Shown here: in pieces, positions 2,243 to 9,413 of the stretch
Numbering within the stretch: position 1 is the stretch's first letter
Layout: every line of letters starts with the position of its first letter
Source: Clostridia bacterium
GTDB lineage: Bacteria; Bacillota_A; Clostridia; Oscillospirales; CAG-272
NCBI GenBank assembly: GCA_017472105.1
Contig: JAFUQY010000279.1
Location: 1-13,330 of the forward strand
Length of the DNA: 13,330 nucleotides
Direction: 5' to 3'
Translations under genes and position numbers: made by a program
The notes under the pieces: model-generated
Databases searched by the model: none
Told to the model about the DNA's origin: nothing
What the model saw: only the letters and a program-made list of their open reading frames with translations

Positions 2243-2271
2243 TTGCAGACCGGCAAAATATGTGGTATAAT
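2243..2271 (+). promoter_or_regulatory. Extended -10 promoter before the purine riboswitch
   Basis: TTGCAG (2243-2248) and a consensus TATAAT (2266-2271) are 17 bases apart, with TG at 2263-2264 giving an extended -10. Transcription should start near 2278, just ahead of the aptamer at 2281. Confidence 0.85.
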
Positions 2272-2280
2272 GGATCTGTA

Positions 2281-2347
2281 ATTTTGTATAGACTCATAAT
2301 ACGGATGAGCGTTTCTACCAACCACCGGAAATGGTTGACTACGAAAT
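2281..2347 (+). promoter_or_regulatory. Purine riboswitch aptamer, guanine type
   Basis: All parts of the purine aptamer can be placed. P1 pairs 2281-2288 with 2340-2347 (8 pairs, one G-U). P2 is 2293-2297 with 2305-2309, and P3 is 2319-2324 with 2332-2337. Junction J2/3 is the canonical GTTTCTAC (2311-2318). The loops AATACGG (2298-2304) and CCGGAAA (2325-2331) keep the GG and CC needed for loop-loop contact. The ligand-contact bases equivalent to U22, U47 and U51 are present (2289, 2312, 2316). The discriminating base equivalent to position 74 is C (2339), which predicts guanine or hypoxanthine rather than adenine. The flavoprotein gene begins 40 bases downstream. Confidence 0.92.
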
Positions 2348-2348
2348 A

Positions 2349-2379
2349 CCAATAACGGTTAACCATGCATTTGGGAGGA
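2349..2379 (+). promoter_or_regulatory. Candidate expression platform and ribosome binding site
   Basis: TTAACCAT (2359-2366) can pair with ATGGTTGA (2331-2338), which contains the 3' strand of P3, so this pairing excludes the folded aptamer. When the aptamer is folded, CCAA (2349-2352) could instead pair with TTGG (2371-2374) and cover the start of the ribosome binding site GGGAGGA (2373-2379). No T tract follows, so translational rather than transcriptional control is more likely. The second pairing is only four bases and weak, so the mechanism is inference. Confidence 0.4.
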
Positions 2380-2386
2380 CACAGAA

Positions 2387-3757
2387 ATGAATTATGACAT
2401 TATCATCATCGGCGCGGGTCCCGGAGGCATTTTCTCGGCGTTCGAGCTGATCCACAAAAAGCCGGAGCTGAAAATCGCCGTGTTTGAGGCGGGACATGCC
2501 CTGAGCAAGCGCCGCTGTCCCATTGACGGAGAAAAGGTGAAGACCTGCATCGGATGCAAAAGCTGTTCCATCATGAGCGGCTTCGGCGGTGCGGGTGCAT
2601 TCTCCGACGGCAAGTACAACATCACCAACGATTTCGGAGGAACCCTGTACGAATACATCGGCAAGAAGCAGGCTCTCGATCTGATGCGCTATGTGGACGA
2701 GATCAACATGCGCTACGGCGGAGAGGGAACAAAGCTCTATACCACCGCGGGCACGAAGTTCAAGAAGGAATGCATCCGCCACGACCTGCATCTTCTTGAC
2801 GCATCCGTACGCCATCTCGGAACGGACATCAACTACATTGTGCTCGAAAACCTGTACGCTGAGCTTGAGAAAAAGATCGATTTCTACTTCGATACTCCGG
2901 TCAGAACCATCACCGCGAAGGACGACGGCTACGAAATCCACTGCGAACACGCGAGCCACACCTGTGGAAAGTGCATCATTTCCGTCGGCAGAAGCGGCAG
3001 CAAGTGGATGGAGCAGGTCTGCCGCGAGCTGAACATTCCCACAAAATCCAACCGCGTGGACATCGGCGTCCGCGTCGAGCTTCCCGCTGAGGTGTTCGCG
3101 CATCTCACCGACGAGCTGTACGAGAGCAAAATCGTCTACCGCACGGAAAAATACGGCGACAGAGTGCGCACGTTCTGCATGAATCCCAAGGGCGCGGTCG
3201 TCAACGAAAACACCAACGGTATCATCACCGTCAACGGTCACAGCTACGAGGATCCCGCAAAGCAGACGGAAAACACCAATTTCGCACTGCTGGTGGCAAA
3301 GCATTTCTCCGAACCGTTCAAGGATTCCAACGGCTACGGCGAATCCATTGCACGGCTGAGCAACATGCTGGGCGGCGGCGTCATCGTTCAGCGCTTCGGG
3401 GATCTCATCAACGGACGACGCTCCACACCCAACCGCATTGAAGAAGCCTTCATCACGCCCACGCTCAAGGCAACGCCCGGGGATCTCAGTCTGGTACTCC
3501 CGAAGCGCATCCTCGACGGCATCATTGAGATGATCTACGCGCTCGACAAGGTTGCACCCGGCACGGCAAACGAGGACACCCTTCTCTACGGCGTCGAAGT
3601 CAAGTTCTACAACATGGAAGTCGACATCGACGGAAACCTCGAATCCTGCTGCAAGGGTCTGTACATCATCGGCGACGGCAGCGGCATCACCCATTCGCTG
3701 TCCCACGCATCCGCCAGCGGTGTTCACGTCGCACGGTGCATCGCGGAAGCCATGTAA
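2387..3757 (+). CDS. FAD-dependent oxidoreductase resembling COG2509, under a guanine-type riboswitch
   Basis: This flavoprotein has 456 residues. The N-terminal Rossmann motif is GAGPGG (9-14), with the acidic end of strand two in FEAG (33-36). A cysteine cluster follows: C44, C54, C57 and C60 in KTCIGCKSCS, leading into GFGGAGAFSDGK. This resembles the uncharacterised FAD-dependent dehydrogenases of COG2509 and could hold an iron-sulfur cluster or a redox-active cysteine. Near the C terminus GLYIIGDGSGITHSLSHASASG (about 424-445) is the second FAD-binding element. There is no signal peptide or membrane helix, so it is cytoplasmic. The substrate is unknown. Control by a guanine-type riboswitch suggests a link to purine salvage, uptake or breakdown. 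GGGAGGA lies 7 bases before the ATG, and a terminator follows the stop, so it appears to be a single-gene unit. Confidence 0.85.
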   Translation: MNYDIIIIGAGPGGIFSAFELIHKKPELKIAVFEAGHALSKRRCPIDGEKVKTCIGCKSCSIMSGFGGAGAFSDGKYNITNDFGGTLYEYIGKKQALDLMRYVDEINMRYGGEGTKLYTTAGTKFKKECIRHDLHLLDASVRHLGTDINYIVLENLYAELEKKIDFYFDTPVRTITAKDDGYEIHCEHASHTCGKCIISVGRSGSKWMEQVCRELNIPTKSNRVDIGVRVELPAEVFAHLTDELYESKIVYRTEKYGDRVRTFCMNPKGAVVNENTNGIITVNGHSYEDPAKQTENTNFALLVAKHFSEPFKDSNGYGESIARLSNMLGGGVIVQRFGDLINGRRSTPNRIEEAFITPTLKATPGDLSLVLPKRILDGIIEMIYALDKVAPGTANEDTLLYGVEVKFYNMEVDIDGNLESCCKGLYIIGDGSGITHSLSHASASGVHVARCIAEAM

Positions 3758-3811: not shown

Positions 3812-4201
3812 TCAGTTTTTCAGAAATTTTCTGCCGAGCACATCCGCCCATTTTTCGCAGTACAGCGCGGAGTAGGGCACGTGTTTTTCCCTGCGGTACC
3901 GCTGAAATGCCGGCAGATTGCACCACGTGAACGACGGCACACCCACGGCGAGAAGATAGAGCGGCCCGAGGATGAGCGACTGAACGGTGTGCCCGAATTC
4001 GTGCGAGCGCAGGGACGGGGCGTTTTTCGGATAGAAGATGAACAGCCCGAGCGAGACGCCGTCATTGCGGTTCCACTGCGTACCCACGACGGAGCCGACC
4101 TTTTCGTGCGGACAGCGGCGGTACACGAGGAAGAACACCAGTCCCACAAGGGTCTGCGGCAGTCCCCATGTGCATTGGAGGAGTCTGAGAAGGTGGTGCA
4201 T
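3812..4201 (-). CDS. Small membrane protein with HEXXH and ExxAD motifs, putative metallopeptidase
   Basis: This protein of 129 residues has a hydrophobic N-terminal helix (TLVGLVFFLVYR) and a second hydrophobic stretch (SLILGPLYLLAVGVPSF). Between them lies SHEFGHTVQS, a full HEXXH zinc-binding motif at the edge of the second helix. Near the C terminus CEKWADVLG supplies ExxAD, the usual third-ligand motif of gluzincins such as the M48 and M78 families. The rest of a classic peptidase domain is missing, so catalysis is inference. I recall similar unnamed small proteins in Clostridia but cannot name the family. ATG 4201 is preferred because GGAAAGG sits 5 bases upstream. Longer readings to 4468 run through the divergent gene and are unlikely. 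It is divergent from the next gene across 99 bases. Confidence 0.7.
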   Translation of the reverse strand: MHHLLRLLQCTWGLPQTLVGLVFFLVYRRCPHEKVGSVVGTQWNRNDGVSLGLFIFYPKNAPSLRSHEFGHTVQSLILGPLYLLAVGVPSFTWCNLPAFQRYRREKHVPYSALYCEKWADVLGRKFLKN

Positions 4202-4300
4202 GAAGTCCTTTCCCGGCGGAAATTGCCGCAAATGCGATTTTTCGTGCAGAAATTCACACCGGATTGTGTTAGAATAAAGAAAACGAGTATCGGAGGAAGT

Positions 4301-4801
4301 ATGAAGCAGTTCATTGCCGCGCAGTTTTCCGCATACGGCATTGCAGAAGCCGTGTCCCATTCCGTCAGCAGACCGGCGGAGGATCCCTGCATGTCGCGTA
4401 CGTTCGTAACCGGCAGAGCGGGAGAAAATTTTCACGTCACCGTCTGCTGGTACGTCTGGGAGGAGCACCCGGAGCTGAGTTCAATGGACGAAGCCGAGCT
4501 TGTGAAGTCCCCGGACGCGGAGATTCAGATTTTCAGCGAAACCGATGCCGCGGACAGGCTTGCCGAATACACACGCCGGCTTCTGTCCTACGGGAACGAC
4601 GGATGCTCCGATTATACAGCGTCCCGCTGCGTGATTGCCGGGGAAGAAGAGGATGCCCGTGCCGCTCTGGTGCTGTACCGCGAGGGAGACACCGTCATCG
4701 ATTCACTCGCCGATGAGGAGCTGTGGGCGCTTGATGTGACGATGTTCGACAACAGCGAAGGATACGACCGCGAGGAATTTTCACGCTTCCGGGGGATCTG
4801 A
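4301..4801 (+). CDS. Uncharacterised acidic cytoplasmic protein
   Basis: This is a protein of 166 residues without a signal peptide or membrane helix, and I do not recognise its family. It is rich in Glu and Asp, especially in the segments EEHPELSSMDEAELV and GEEEDARAALV, and has scattered cysteines (YGNDGCSDYTASRC). ATG 4301 has GGAGG (4292-4296) just upstream and a possible -10 box TAGAAT at 4270-4275, with no good -35. An in-frame extension back to 3881 lies opposite the minus-strand gene and is not credible. Its last 21 bases overlap the end of the convergent hydrolase gene (4781-4801). No terminator was seen at that junction. Confidence 0.6.
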   Translation: MKQFIAAQFSAYGIAEAVSHSVSRPAEDPCMSRTFVTGRAGENFHVTVCWYVWEEHPELSSMDEAELVKSPDAEIQIFSETDAADRLAEYTRRLLSYGNDGCSDYTASRCVIAGEEEDARAALVLYREGDTVIDSLADEELWALDVTMFDNSEGYDREEFSRFRGI

Positions 4802-5857
4802 AAACTGCGGTGCATATTCCGCGCGGAGTCTGTCAAGCCGTGCATTTGCGGCATCAAGATGCTCTTCGCAGAAATGCACGACGTCGGCGAAGACGTTCTC
4901 ACATCCCCAGTCGCGGAAAATTTCGTGGCGGAACCTCTTGTACATCAGCGCGGTCACGTTTTTGAAGCCGATGTCCGTGAGGAATTTCCGGCTTGCCAGA
5001 ACCCGTTTGTCACCGCCTGCGACCGGGTCAAGTTCACCCGCCATGATCTGGATGGGCAGCTCCTTCTTCGGCATGTCCCAGAACGCAGACCGGTGGAAGT
5101 CCCGTACCATGCGCAGAAGATTCGTGTAGGTACAGATCGCCTTATCGGAACTGCACAGCGGATCGGCGATGAATTCGTACCGGTTGTCAATGTCGTTCGA
5201 GAGCCACATGAACTGTCCGTCCGACTGCGGCTCCGGAGTGAATTGCCGGTTGTAGTTCGAAAACGCGATCCTGTTCAGCCAGCTCAGCTTTGCTTCCTCA
5301 CCGCAGACGGCTTCGAGCAGACTGAGCATGAGGACGCCGACGGATGTGGTTCTGTGCCGGAAGGGAAGTCCCGCCAGCATCAGCCCGTCCACGGATTCCG
5401 GCTGACGCGCGGTGTAGATTCCGGCGATGAGGGAGCCCATGGAGAAACCGAGCAGGAACCGCGGCAGATCCGGGAATTCCATATCGGTCGGTACGCTCAC
5501 GGTAATGCCGTCCTCGTTGTCCGTGATGTCCTCCGACGCAAGCGACGCGAACACCATGTCGATGCCGAGCCGCAGATTTGCATAGTCGTAGCCGGGATTT
5601 TTCAGAACGCCCAGCTGATCCGGAGACGGGATGCTTGCCCCATGCCCCGGCAGATCGTGCAGAATCACCTCCGCACCGTGGGACGCCGCATATTCCATCA
5701 GTCCGGTGAACCGCTCCTTGTGCTCGGCGATTCCGTGAACCAGCTGGAGAACGTATTTCGGTTCGCAGTCGGGTGAGATACGCAGAACGCTGATCGGATC
5801 GACGGCGTTTTTTTGTTTGGGATCCGCACAAATCACGCGGTATGTGGTTGTTTTCAT
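4781..5857 (-). CDS. Alpha/beta hydrolase (serine hydrolase, monoacylglycerol lipase-like)
   Basis: This protein of 358 residues has the alpha/beta hydrolase fold. The oxyanion-hole motif VHGIAEH starts near residue 40, and HDLPGHGAS follows near 67. The nucleophile elbow is GFSMGS, with Ser at about 139. The likely acid is Asp in AGELDPV (about 280), and the likely base is His in RFRHEIF (about 313). The layout matches the Hydrolase_4/monoacylglycerol lipase-like group, which acts on esters of lipids or small molecules. The actual substrate is unknown. No signal peptide is seen, so it is cytoplasmic. ATG 5857 has AGAGG 7 bases upstream. An ATG at 5881 overlaps the upstream stop (ATGA) and would add eight residues. 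It shares a transcript with the FAD protein upstream. Confidence 0.85.
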   Translation of the reverse strand: MKTTTYRVICADPKQKNAVDPISVLRISPDCEPKYVLQLVHGIAEHKERFTGLMEYAASHGAEVILHDLPGHGASIPSPDQLGVLKNPGYDYANLRLGIDMVFASLASEDITDNEDGITVSVPTDMEFPDLPRFLLGFSMGSLIAGIYTARQPESVDGLMLAGLPFRHRTTSVGVLMLSLLEAVCGEEAKLSWLNRIAFSNYNRQFTPEPQSDGQFMWLSNDIDNRYEFIADPLCSSDKAICTYTNLLRMVRDFHRSAFWDMPKKELPIQIMAGELDPVAGGDKRVLASRKFLTDIGFKNVTALMYKRFRHEIFRDWGCENVFADVVHFCEEHLDAANARLDRLRAEYAPQFSDPPEA

Positions 5858-5877
5858 AGCAGAACCTCTGTAAGTAA

Positions 5878-7800
5878 TCATTCGTATAATTCCGGCTTGC
5901 CGAAGGTGTTGTAGACCGTCTCGAACCAGTTGTCGGCAGTCGGAATGGGACGCGCGGGAACAAACGTGGACGATGACGAGACGGAATCTCCGCTGAGCTC
6001 AAGCGAAGTCACGAGTACACAGTCACGGTGCACGGTGTCTGTTTCGACCGTTTCGGGGATTTTTCCGTCCGTGATGAGGTACGATCCGCGCGATTTTCCG
6101 CCGTCGGCGATGTAGTGCGAGATTGCGGAGAGCATGGCATACCGCGTCAGAAGTACGTCATAGCTGATTGCAAGCTGAACAAGCGCACGGTGACTGTCAG
6201 CGGACTGCGCGGTGAAGAATCCGTCGATATCCTGCCGGGTCTTTGCGAGCAGTGCGCCGATCTCGTCAGGCTTGCGCAGGAACGCGGCACATGCGTCGTG
6301 GAGACGTCCGTTTTCCTCACGCTCGCGGAGAATTTCACCGACCGTTTTGCCGCCGGGTCGGAGCAGAGACGTCAGCTTTTGTGCAAATGCAAGGGCATCG
6401 CCGGGGATTTTGTCCGTCGCCTGAACCTTGAGTGCGCAGATCCGCTCGGATGCACGGGAGGAGCTGACCTGCGTGGAGTTGAGTGCCGAGCCGCCGGGAC
6501 GCTTTACGCCGAAGACGCCTGCACATTCCCCGACCGGGTAGAAATTGCGGATGACGGGATTTTCGTACCAGATTCCGCATTCCAGACCGCCGTTGAGGTG
6601 CTGAGCGGACACTTGAATCTCCAGATATTCGCGCTCAAGGTCGATTCCGTGGTCGAGATACAGCCGGTATGCCCGCTCGTTCATCTGACGGAGACGCTTC
6701 ACGGGCGTGTCACCGAGGGAGTCCGAGCTTCTGAGGTAGTCGTACGCGGTCTGCCCGACGGATTCTTCGGTGATGCCGGACGAAAGCTGAACCGGGTCGC
6801 GCATGAAATCGAGATACACCCGCCGTCCGCGCTGGATTTCGCCGTAAACCGCCAGATCGACGCGGGAGGAGCCGCTGTTCGACGTGATTTTATCCGGGTC
6901 AAAGGGCCATTCGTAGCCTTTGGAGAAGATCAGATGGGGATGGAAGTCCGCGAGAAACTCGTGCTCGGTGCCGTCCGGATCGACGGAGACGTAGCGCGGG
7001 AGCACCTGCTGATACGATCCCGACAGATTCCAGCGGAACTTCACCGACGCAATGCCGTACTGCGATTCGGTCAGGTTGGACGCCGTGACGCCTGCTGCCA
7101 TCGGTGCGCCGAGGGAACAGTTCTGGCTTTCGGGATACACCGAGCCGTAATACACCGCAGAAGGTCCGCCAACTGCCCAGACCGTCGCTCCGCTGAGGAA
7201 AACGGCAAGTCCGGCGGGATTTTCGTCGGTGATCTCGTTTTCGCTGATGCACAGGATACCGGCGGCGGTGCTGTCTTCCGTCAGAACACGGACAGCGCGG
7301 TAACCGTCGAAAAAGCGGACTCCGGCAGTGCGGCATGCGGATTCCAGCGCTTCGGTCATGTATTTCGACGTCAGCGGCCCGCAGGATGCTGCACGCATTC
7401 TGGCATCGTGGTCGGTGCGGTAGCCGGTGTATTCGCCGTAGCGGTCATGCGGGAAGGGAACGCCGAGGGACACCAGTTTAAAAAATCCGCCGAGGGAACC
7501 CGCCGCTTCTACGAGGGCAAGATCCCCGTGCATGGAGCCGCCGCGGAGGTAGTCCTGTGCCATGTCCGCCGCGCAGTCGGGTGTGGTCAGCCCGGTCGAG
7601 AGCTTGTAGTAGGTCTGCTTGTCCGAGCCCGTGTTGCGGGAGGTGCCCATGTTCATGCCTTCGGTGACCACAACGGTGTCCGTTTTTGCGTGACAGCAGA
7701 GTGCCGCATTGAGCGCAGCCGCACCGCTTCCCACGATGACAGTCTCCGCGGAGTAGACGGGCATCACGCATCCGCCATGCTTCAAAAATGTTTTCTTCAT
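5878..7800 (-). CDS. FAD-binding protein of the fumarate reductase / L-aspartate oxidase flavoprotein type
   Basis: This flavoprotein has about 640 residues. Near the N terminus AETVIVGSGAAALNAAL is the dinucleotide-binding motif. NMGTSRNTGSDKQTYYKL follows in the position where this superfamily has its conserved glycine/serine-rich FAD loop. HLNGGL and VGECAGVFGVKRPGGSALNSTQV (about 425-447) match the C-terminal FAD-contact region of fumarate reductase and aspartate oxidase flavoproteins. There is no Tat or Sec signal and no heme domain, so it is probably a soluble cytoplasmic oxidoreductase of unknown substrate. The start is uncertain: ATG 7800 fits the mapped promoter, TTG 7809 and ATG 7764 are alternatives, and none has a strong ribosome binding site. 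It is the first gene of a two-gene operon with the alpha/beta hydrolase. Confidence 0.8.
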   Translation of the reverse strand: MKKTFLKHGGCVMPVYSAETVIVGSGAAALNAALCCHAKTDTVVVTEGMNMGTSRNTGSDKQTYYKLSTGLTTPDCAADMAQDYLRGGSMHGDLALVEAAGSLGGFFKLVSLGVPFPHDRYGEYTGYRTDHDARMRAASCGPLTSKYMTEALESACRTAGVRFFDGYRAVRVLTEDSTAAGILCISENEITDENPAGLAVFLSGATVWAVGGPSAVYYGSVYPESQNCSLGAPMAAGVTASNLTESQYGIASVKFRWNLSGSYQQVLPRYVSVDPDGTEHEFLADFHPHLIFSKGYEWPFDPDKITSNSGSSRVDLAVYGEIQRGRRVYLDFMRDPVQLSSGITEESVGQTAYDYLRSSDSLGDTPVKRLRQMNERAYRLYLDHGIDLEREYLEIQVSAQHLNGGLECGIWYENPVIRNFYPVGECAGVFGVKRPGGSALNSTQVSSSRASERICALKVQATDKIPGDALAFAQKLTSLLRPGGKTVGEILREREENGRLHDACAAFLRKPDEIGALLAKTRQDIDGFFTAQSADSHRALVQLAISYDVLLTRYAMLSAISHYIADGGKSRGSYLITDGKIPETVETDTVHRDCVLVTSLELSGDSVSSSSTFVPARPIPTADNWFETVYNTFGKPELYE

Positions 7801-7842
7801 ATTAATCAAGTCCGATTCTTTGCGTCATAGTTTCATATTGGT

Positions 7843-7871
7843 ATCATATCATAAAATCACAGGATGTGCAA
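7843..7871 (-). promoter_or_regulatory. Promoter of the FAD protein/hydrolase operon
   Basis: On the minus strand TTGCAC (7866-7871) and TATGAT (7843-7848) are separated by 17 bases. Transcription from about 7836 gives a leader of about 36 bases to ATG 7800. The 7801-8054 interval is a divergent intergenic region that also holds the promoter of the secreted protein. Confidence 0.75.
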
Positions 7872-7982
7872 CGGATAAACGGTAAACATTCGGAAAAATC
7901 CCTGCATGGTTTTCCTTCCGGCGGAAAGTTTGTGAAGCAATTGCAAATTTTCGACAAAAAGATAAAATTAGCCAAAAAATAC

Positions 7983-8011
7983 TTGACAATGCGAAACGGA
8001 GGCGATATAAT
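7983..8011 (+). promoter_or_regulatory. Perfect consensus sigma-A promoter of the secreted-protein gene
   Basis: TTGACA (7983-7988) and TATAAT (8006-8011) both match consensus exactly and are 17 bases apart. A-rich tracts at about 7950-7980 directly upstream could act as an UP element. This predicts strong constitutive transcription from about 8018. Confidence 0.93.
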
Positions 8012-8054
8012 TATGTCGTATAATCATCTCATTATCACATTCAGGAGGTATCGA

Positions 8055-9413
8055 ATGAATAGACTCACCAGAGCAGCGTCCATGCTTCTCGCTGCCATTA
8101 CCGTTGCCGGTTCTGCTGTCTCCGCTGTTTCCGCGGCTGACGTTATCAAGTTCCTTCCCGGCATCAAGGATTATAACGAATGCGAAATCTGCGAATCCCT
8201 CATCTGGGGTGACGAAGATTATGTCAAGCTCAGCGGCAAGTATTATCACACCGAATGCCGCGAAGACGAAGAAGATGACGACGACAAGCACGTTTATCTT
8301 CCTTCCTGCAAGCCCCTCAAGCCCACGTACGAATACGTAACCACCTACGTTCCCGTACAGGAAGGCAGCAATCTCTACGTTGAATCCGACAAGAAGCTCG
8401 TGATCGCAACCAAGCCCGTGGTTACTGTAAAGCCCGGCACCGTTGTAAAGCCCTCTTACACCGTAATTCCCGGTACCACCACCATCCTCGGCGGCAAGTA
8501 CTACACCTCCGAAGAAGCACGCGAATACTTCAGCGACTACTTCGAAGACAACACTTACAGCATCACCCTCAGATCCGGCGACACCAGAACCTTCGACTCC
8601 GGCGCATACTTCATCTCTTCCGATCCCGAAGTTGCTTACTACGACTACAAGGAAGGCAAGATCGTTGCAGGTACCCACGGTTCCGCTGAACTCTATGTAT
8701 GCAGCAGCGCAGGCATTCCCTACTTCTGCATCAAGGTAAACGTTCTCACCCGCCTCACCGACTCCAAGAAGGAAGCCGCATACCTCAAGGTTGACGCATC
8801 CGCATGGCAGCTCTCCAAGGGCGAAACCGCAACCCTCACCGTAACCGGTTCCGACGGCAAGACCTATGACGACATCAACTACACCGTCAGATTCGGCGAA
8901 GAAAACGCGACCGTCGGCAAGAAGACCGGCGTTGTTACCGCAAACGGAAACGGTCCCGTTGTAGTACGCGCATACTCCAAGTCCAATCCCAACCTGTACG
9001 GCGAAGCACTTCTCTTCGTAGGCAGCTACAAGAACTACGTTTACGACGGTTACTGGACCACCACCAACGACGGCATCATCGTCAACGGCTGGGGCACCAC
9101 TGACGTTGTGATCGACTACTACTCCTACATCGCAGGCTGGATCAAGGTGGAAGACGACGGTCCGATGATTCCCGTTATCAAGAAGATCGACGCGATCAAC
9201 GAAAAGGGCGAAGACACCCAGATCATCACCGGCGAACTTCTCAGCTACACCGATCTGCTCAAGCAGGCTTACGGTGACAAGGACGACATCGTTGACATCC
9301 TCAAGAAGTACAATCTGTACAAGAACGGCATCAGCGAAGACAAGGTTACCGTAAATGATATCGACTGGGATAAGATCGTTCTCGGTCAGATCTTCAAGGC
9401 AATCAACGGCTGA
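8055..9413 (+). CDS. Abundant secreted protein with half-LIM-like motif and Ig-like (Big_2-like) regions
   Basis: This protein of 452 residues has a clear Sec signal peptide: MNRLTRAASMLLAAITVAGSAVSAVSA, with likely cleavage after Ala27. The mature start carries C43-x2-C46-x18-H65-x2-C68, the spacing of one zinc-binding half of a LIM domain, followed by a run of Asp and Glu (70-77). A Val/Lys/Pro-rich linker with TKPVVTVKPGTVVKP comes next. Two regions, about 180-260 and 265-350, look like bacterial Ig-like Big_2 modules (SSDPEVAYYDYKEGKIVAGTHG; GEENATVGKKTGVVTANGNG). There is no LPXTG or C-terminal membrane anchor, so it is probably released or held non-covalently in the wall. Codon choice is strongly biased (AAG, GAC, TAC, GGC, CCC), unlike most neighbours, which suggests high expression. 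AGGAGGT precedes the ATG. Function is unknown. Confidence 0.85.
   Translation: MNRLTRAASMLLAAITVAGSAVSAVSAADVIKFLPGIKDYNECEICESLIWGDEDYVKLSGKYYHTECREDEEDDDDKHVYLPSCKPLKPTYEYVTTYVPVQEGSNLYVESDKKLVIATKPVVTVKPGTVVKPSYTVIPGTTTILGGKYYTSEEAREYFSDYFEDNTYSITLRSGDTRTFDSGAYFISSDPEVAYYDYKEGKIVAGTHGSAELYVCSSAGIPYFCIKVNVLTRLTDSKKEAAYLKVDASAWQLSKGETATLTVTGSDGKTYDDINYTVRFGEENATVGKKTGVVTANGNGPVVVRAYSKSNPNLYGEALLFVGSYKNYVYDGYWTTTNDGIIVNGWGTTDVVIDYYSYIAGWIKVEDDGPMIPVIKKIDAINEKGEDTQIITGELLSYTDLLKQAYGDKDDIVDILKKYNLYKNGISEDKVTVNDIDWDKIVLGQIFKAING

Follow-up and report, generated by a model that had tools for sequence, protein, structure and literature searches.

The window analysed here is the whole 13,330-nucleotide stretch of contig JAFUQY010000279.1 from a Clostridia bacterium. 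On its plus strand, a guanine-class purine riboswitch aptamer lies just 5' of the gene for a flavoprotein with a conserved four-cysteine motif, and the leader of that gene contains a hairpin that competes with the aptamer (Table 1).

Table 1. Positions of the riboswitch, leader and flavoprotein features in the window
Feature	Positions	Strand	Basis
Extended -10 promoter element TGGTATAAT	2263..2271	+	Sequence match; -35 poor
Guanine-class purine riboswitch aptamer, P1 to P1	2281..2347	+	RF00167, helix coordinates, covariation
Competing hairpin, 2331-2340/2357-2366	2331..2366	+	Folds; complementarity against shuffles
Shine-Dalgarno GGGAGG	2373..2378	+	Sequence; pairing probabilities with and without aptamer
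456-aa PF21688 flavoprotein	2387..3757	+	ORF, Pfam match
Four-cysteine motif C-x9-C-x2-C-x2-C, codons C44 to C60	2516..2566	+	Alignment

The aptamer and the flavoprotein gene

The sequence-only reading had called a purine aptamer with C at the specificity position and had named the RF00167 covariance model as its check. The call is borne out: RF00167 matches over its full model length at 2264-2361 (plus strand), its 61.1 bits (E 7.9e-9) exceed the gathering score of 37 bits, position 2339 is C, and the Rfam scan of the window up to an E value of 1 returned no match besides RF00167. The three helices, P1 (2281-2288/2340-2347), P2 (2293-2297/2305-2309) and P3 (2319-2324/2332-2337), consist of standard pairs, except that P2 is marked with one non-standard pair at its base, and the joining segments J2/3 (GUUUCUACC) and J3/1 (GACUAC) keep the guanine-I core. 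The C at 2339, which we take to be C74 in the xpt numbering, denotes the guanine type, where U would mean adenine, and it is unchanged across 13 aligned aptamers. In this alignment both sides change in 14 of 20 pairs, a count that none of 500 shuffles reached. One relative, L053, reads GACTAT and was considered as an adenine switch, but was rejected because the C of its GAC sets the specificity, presumably as in xpt. From its sequence, we infer that the window aptamer binds guanine or hypoxanthine. Close variants with other ligands exist according to PMC9295807, and J3/1 differs in two of the relatives (GUC in L046, GGC in L026); nevertheless, xanthine, 2'-deoxyguanosine or guanosine is a very improbable ligand here, given the retained core of the window and the specificity C in 13 of 13 aptamers.

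The flavoprotein matches PF21688 (FAD-dependent protein, C-terminal domain-like) at 49 bits, against a gathering cut-off of 27, and also the N-terminus of Pyr_redox_2; the label COG2509-like is, we presume, appropriate to it. C44, C54, C57 and C60 are unchanged in 28 of 28 aligned homologues, and the earlier description of an FAD-type protein with these cysteines stands. As judged from the motif, a Cys4 iron-sulphur site is likely; the structure model has pLDDT values below 50 at residues 49-57, within the cysteine stretch. The family is large, with at least 7,998 candidates scored, all at E <= 1e-30, and its listed members go by no name more specific than 'FAD-dependent oxidoreductase' or 'NAD(P)-binding protein'. 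At E <= 0.001, a sequence comparison finds a single relative whose structure has been solved, the uncharacterised VP0956 (PDB 3nlc). A fold search with the flavoprotein gave no substrate clue; the fold neighbours are flavin reductases and oxidases of a general kind, none of them acting on a purine.

Extended -10 matches number two in the window, against 0.14 expected, and the site at 2263-2271 was not among the promoters listed by the promoter scan of the window. Of 14 leaders, eight have an exact TATAAT within 45 nt 5' of the aptamer. Since the upstream SdpI-family gene stops at 2233, the window aptamer probably heads its own transcript. Just downstream of the flavoprotein gene, Pfam matched no family to the ORFs at 3812-4468 (minus strand) and 3881-4801 (plus strand), and the next recognisable gene (4781-5881) lies on the strand opposite to the flavoprotein. 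The earlier claim of a single gene behind the aptamer is thus likely, short of proven, and the flavoprotein mRNA probably carries one gene.

The window holds other genes of note. An SdpR-type ArsR-family repressor gene, followed by the SdpI-family membrane protein gene, occupies 1330-2233, just 5' of the riboswitch. A second flavoprotein of 643 residues, with FAD_binding_2 and weak matches to L-aspartate oxidase/fumarate reductase models, is encoded at 5878-7809 (minus strand), and a 515-residue ORF at 7866-9413 (plus strand) seems by eye to carry a signal peptide and is matched by neither Pfam nor NCBIfam.

Recurrence of the aptamer and linkage to purine genes

Species genomes were scanned for relatives, and the best 80 of those listed (79-88% identity) were taken with their flanks; the aptamer is found at the same place in 13 of them and is absent in 67. 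The 13 comprise 12 true regular-expression matches and L043, which was added by the covariance model; the regular-expression match in L039 was dropped as false. Our own covariance model, based on 13 aptamers from the window and 12 relatives, gave 14 strong matches in the 902,340 bases that the window and the 80 loci make up, all just 5' of the flavoprotein gene and none elsewhere in these bases, with 13 of the 14 matching by construction as members of the model. A fifteenth match (L028, E 5.8) is at chance level. Two aptamers are odd, L032 with a shortened P2 (51.1 bits) and L043 with a decayed core (39.3 bits), and RF00167 found no match in the L032 and L043 genomes. In L043 (5868-6001), J2/3 reads UUUGCUGC and J3/1 GGCUGC, and a strong terminator hairpin is still drawn from the aptamer; the switch may have decayed, or it may be a variant that binds a different ligand. 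An Rfam scan of 27 of the 67 aptamer-less loci gave nothing but tRNAs, one 5S rRNA and, at a distance from the gene, two T-boxes.

A sample of 245 genomes from the order of one locus was chosen independently of the flavoprotein gene. It contains 41 purine aptamers in 37 genomes, 40 of them above the cut-off, by a scan whose stricter filters miss weak matches, and the flavoprotein at E <= 1e-20 in 137 genomes. By coordinates, 8 of the 41 aptamers lie directly 5' of the flavoprotein gene on the same strand, against a rough chance expectation of 0.01. These pairs fall in two branches of the family, one of 76-88% identity (G001, G008 on contig 152, G153 and G250) and one of 38-40% identity (G086 on contig 24, G100, G162 and G260). 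The other aptamers inspected in this order precede xpt, Bmp lipoproteins, Xan_ur_permease proteins, guanine-deaminase-like genes, AIR carboxylase (purE) and a glutamine amidotransferase taken as purF. In a biased set of 30 genomes, picked for holding the flavoprotein gene, 11 of 17 aptamers precede that gene, and the remaining six lie before purC and purE (both named by eye), two Bmp-like genes and two membrane protein genes.

When the presence of the aptamer (20 rows) was mapped on a quick tree of 122 proteins, 14 changes were needed, at least five of them forced by starred branches; shuffled labels require 18.8 on average, and none of 500 shuffles was as low as 14. The patchiness may reflect loss, gain or transfer of the aptamer. 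The sequence-only reading had named aptamer-less homologues in related genomes as a finding that would tell against it, and the 67 relatives are literally such homologues. We do not take them as decisive, because the aptamer occurs nowhere else in the loci and seven of the aptamer-less genes adjoin xpt. The patchy distribution and the decayed core of L043 would agree with an aptamer match that arose by chance or a relic that does not affect the gene, an explanation that is hardly conceivable in view of the 61.1-bit score, the 14 of 20 covarying pairs and the fixed position before the gene.

xpt lies inside the fetched locus in 10 of the 80 relatives, on the same strand and within 50 nt of the flavoprotein gene in L010, L012, L021, L030, L054, L060 and L063; no aptamer was found in these seven loci. 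It is present in 138 of the 245 order genomes, of which 107 hold both genes, with 30 holding the flavoprotein only, 31 xpt only and 77 neither, an odds ratio of 8.9 with kinship ignored. At least 13 of the 107 genomes with both have xpt within 6 kb of the flavoprotein gene, where about 0.7 would be expected by chance. The linked pairs include four with the flavoprotein before xpt (gaps of 13, 26, 28 and 352), seven with xpt before the flavoprotein (gaps of about 5.1 kb) and two on opposite strands. Four of the seven long gaps were read (L167, L170, L173 and L175): an ABC ATPase, assigned to ABC_tran by Pfam in L167, and two permease-like genes are found in all four, and a Bmp-like lipoprotein in three. 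In G138 the flavoprotein, xpt, a Bmp lipoprotein, an ABC ATPase and permeases stand in one row. The G203 homologue (about 54% identity) adjoins ssnA and ygfK (643 and 1355 bits, above the cut-offs), neither of which was seen in the other fetched flavoprotein loci. G271 was rejected as a purine cluster, its neighbours best matching an XdhC-family aldehyde oxidoreductase maturation factor and a DVU_1551 NTP transferase.

Guanine aptamers also stand before genes that we label guanine-deaminase-like because every genome scored below the 375.4-bit cut-off of TIGR02967. They are found in L107, L108, L112, L117 and L118, and all five genomes lack the flavoprotein. A further such gene, in G203 (C7, 1243727-1245154), lies behind an aptamer just below the cut-off (35.6 bits). 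The notion that flavoprotein and guanine deaminase replace each other was rejected, as 9 of 17 genomes with a TIGR02967 match above 300 bits hold the flavoprotein.

The role in purine metabolism that had been proposed for the flavoprotein gains support from the aptamer in two divergent branches and from the coupling to xpt and BMP-type ABC genes; that it oxidises or reduces a purine, the other part of the proposal, is conjecture. The switch might also be real and its protein not act on purines, guanine serving as a nutrient signal or the protein being tied to general redox balance or to a cofactor derived from purines (flavin, folate). Such an explanation would agree with the general flavin reductases and oxidases among the fold neighbours, with first-listed neighbours of the close relatives' genes that are mostly not conserved, and with the spread of PF21688, which occurs in 262 of 329 genomes of the phylum sample (a cross-table of genome tallies only), many without any aptamer. 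We consider it unlikely, because the linkage to xpt and BMP-ABC genes is repeated and ssnA and ygfK accompany the gene once.

Direction of control

Leaders were classified by their best hairpin with a U-tract, as ON-type where its 5' arm starts inside the aptamer and as OFF-type where it starts downstream. The flavoprotein leaders are ON-type in 15 of 20 cases, as against none of 20 others (xpt 0/7, Bmp 0/10, NCS2 0/3); Fisher's test gives p 8e-7, which is not a clean probability because the rows are related. The flavoprotein leaders not scored as ON are those of the window, L026 and L067, with no terminator, and of L046 and G086, scored downstream, in whose folds the 5' arm appears by eye to be drawn from the aptamer as well. 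The script scored three of five guanine-deaminase-like leaders as ON-type. Two assignments carry caveats, the control hairpin of L114 lying far downstream (112-155) and J3/1 of L103 being misplaced. The clearest ON case is L048, where a 15-pair hairpin joins the P3 3' strand, J3/1 and the P1 3' strand to their complement and is followed by one A and eight T.

Complementarity to the 3' half of the aptamer reaches p <= 0.05 against 500 shuffles in 11 of 17 flavoprotein leaders (all except L026, L037, L065, L067, L113 and L116), compared with 1 of 21 others, in a test that took in neither the xpt leader L123 nor L103. The passes elsewhere are distributed as xpt 1/6 (L124), Bmp 0/8, NCS2 0/2 and guanine-deaminase-like 0/5, where the hairpins seem by eye to use the P3 5' strand, outside the reach of the test. 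The platform of the flavoprotein leaders is, as their sequences read, likely to be mostly ON-type, a direction that the sequence-only reading had missed.

In the window, the competing hairpin draws on J3/1, on the 3' strand of P3 and on the first base of the 3' strand of P1, and the complementarity downstream of the aptamer 3' half has p 0.01 (500 shuffles). No U-tract follows this hairpin, and the window was scored without a terminator. The leader folds at -27.8 kcal/mol when free and at -21.1 kcal/mol with the aptamer enforced. Enforcing the aptamer lowers the pairing of the start codon from 95-99% to 41-68% and that of the last two G of the Shine-Dalgarno element from 75-96% to 10-35%, and raises that of its first G from 77 to 94%. 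These modelled shifts weakly fit a translational ON switch.

A conventional OFF switch, by which guanine would repress the flavoprotein as an accessory of salvage or uptake and the window hairpin would be antiterminator-like or neutral, has to be weighed against this. PMC9295807 describes guanine-I switches as lowering expression, and the window has no terminator that would confirm ON control. Moreover, flavoprotein and xpt share operons, and the xpt leaders are OFF-type in seven of seven cases; in the xpt-transporter operons the flavoprotein stands behind an OFF-type aptamer (L124 is the xpt leader of G048). The aptamer of L121 is likewise OFF-type, with a flavoprotein gene lying just before it. 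We nevertheless regard the OFF switch as quite unlikely, since the terminator arm lies inside the aptamer in 15 of 20 flavoprotein leaders and the enforced window aptamer frees the start codon and half of the Shine-Dalgarno element rather than hiding them.

Guanine-type aptamers with a hairpin from the aptamer 3' end and a U-tract were also seen before other genes, a DUF6198/YczE-like membrane protein in L092 (1501-2332) and a 93-residue protein with a sub-threshold YgjV match in L096 (1501-1896); these genes are possible guanine-induced exporters. A membrane protein of DUF6198, the family of the switch-controlled gene in L092, adjoins and faces a flavoprotein homologue in L176 (9318-10010, minus strand), and similar ORFs occur in L178 and L183, making three related genomes, with the Pfam assignment made on the L176 copy only.

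Proposed role and relation to known systems

We lean, with restrained confidence, towards an oxidoreductase that takes part in the salvage or disposal of purines, contains flavin and probably an iron-sulphur site, and is activated by guanine through an ON switch of the pbuE layout. When no ligand is bound, a downstream complement would pair with the 3' half of the aptamer, made up of the P3 3' strand, J3/1 and the P1 3' strand. In most aptamer-bearing relatives the resulting hairpin and its U-tract would act as a terminator, and in the window a hairpin lacking the U-tract would stand beside a partly masked Shine-Dalgarno element and start codon. Guanine, or hypoxanthine, would steady the aptamer, the hairpin would not form, and the flavoprotein would be expressed, presumably acting as an oxidoreductase beside xanthine phosphoribosyltransferase and a BMP-type nucleoside transporter.

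The guanine-deaminase-like genes with the same layout favour a response to excess, and the xpt and nucleoside-transport operons behind OFF-type leaders do not fit pure disposal. A purine-handling step useful in both regimes would fit the ON and the OFF contexts. A bolder proposal, possible if doubtful, is that the short four-cysteine branch is a new flavin/iron-sulphur purine enzyme of gut anaerobes, induced by guanine through a guanine-I aptamer on an activating platform, and that it forms with the guanine-deaminase-like genes a guanine-excess regulon opposite in sign to the xpt/permease/nucleoside-transporter regulon of the same order. The recurrence of the guanine switch and the xpt operons provide a first testable pathway for a large unstudied protein family. 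If the ON reading is true, a single bacterial order uses one aptamer class in both directions, to shut off xpt, permeases and BMP transporters and to turn on the flavoprotein and the guanine-deaminase-like genes.

Among proteins, VP0956, a long form of PF21688, shares 22-24% identity with the window protein, which does not align to the N-terminal part before residue 96; the four cysteines are absent from the matching stretch of 3nlc. HI0933, aminoacetone oxidase and the urocanate and fumarate reductases align over about 225-250 residues at 12-18% identity.

Among riboswitches, the layout resembles that of the pbuE adenine switch, in which, as we understand it, the terminator is formed from the aptamer 3' half and the ligand turns on an efflux gene. 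The ON layout is the same, whereas the specificity base here is C (guanine) and the window lacks the U-tract. With the guanine-I riboswitch of xpt type (RF00167), the window aptamer shares the three-stem junction, the J2/3 and J3/1 core and the specificity C. PMC9295807 describes known guanine-I switches as OFF switches before salvage, uptake and biosynthesis genes, and the four guanine switches of C. difficile are all OFF according to PMC11477304; in contrast, most leaders described here are ON-type, and their target is an uncharacterised flavoprotein. Our search of the open-licence literature, most subscription papers being outside this scope, turned up no paper describing an activating platform joined to a guanine-I core before this flavoprotein family. 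PMC9295807 predicts ON control for guanine-II, xanthine-II and nucleoside variants, and describes guanine-II and xanthine-II as carrying changes in J2/3 and J3/1 and insertions, before phosphoribosyltransferase (PRT) or purine degradation genes. Predicted ON control is common to these variants and the present leaders, but the aptamers here keep the guanine-I core. The aptamer itself is ordinary; its platform and its target gene are not.
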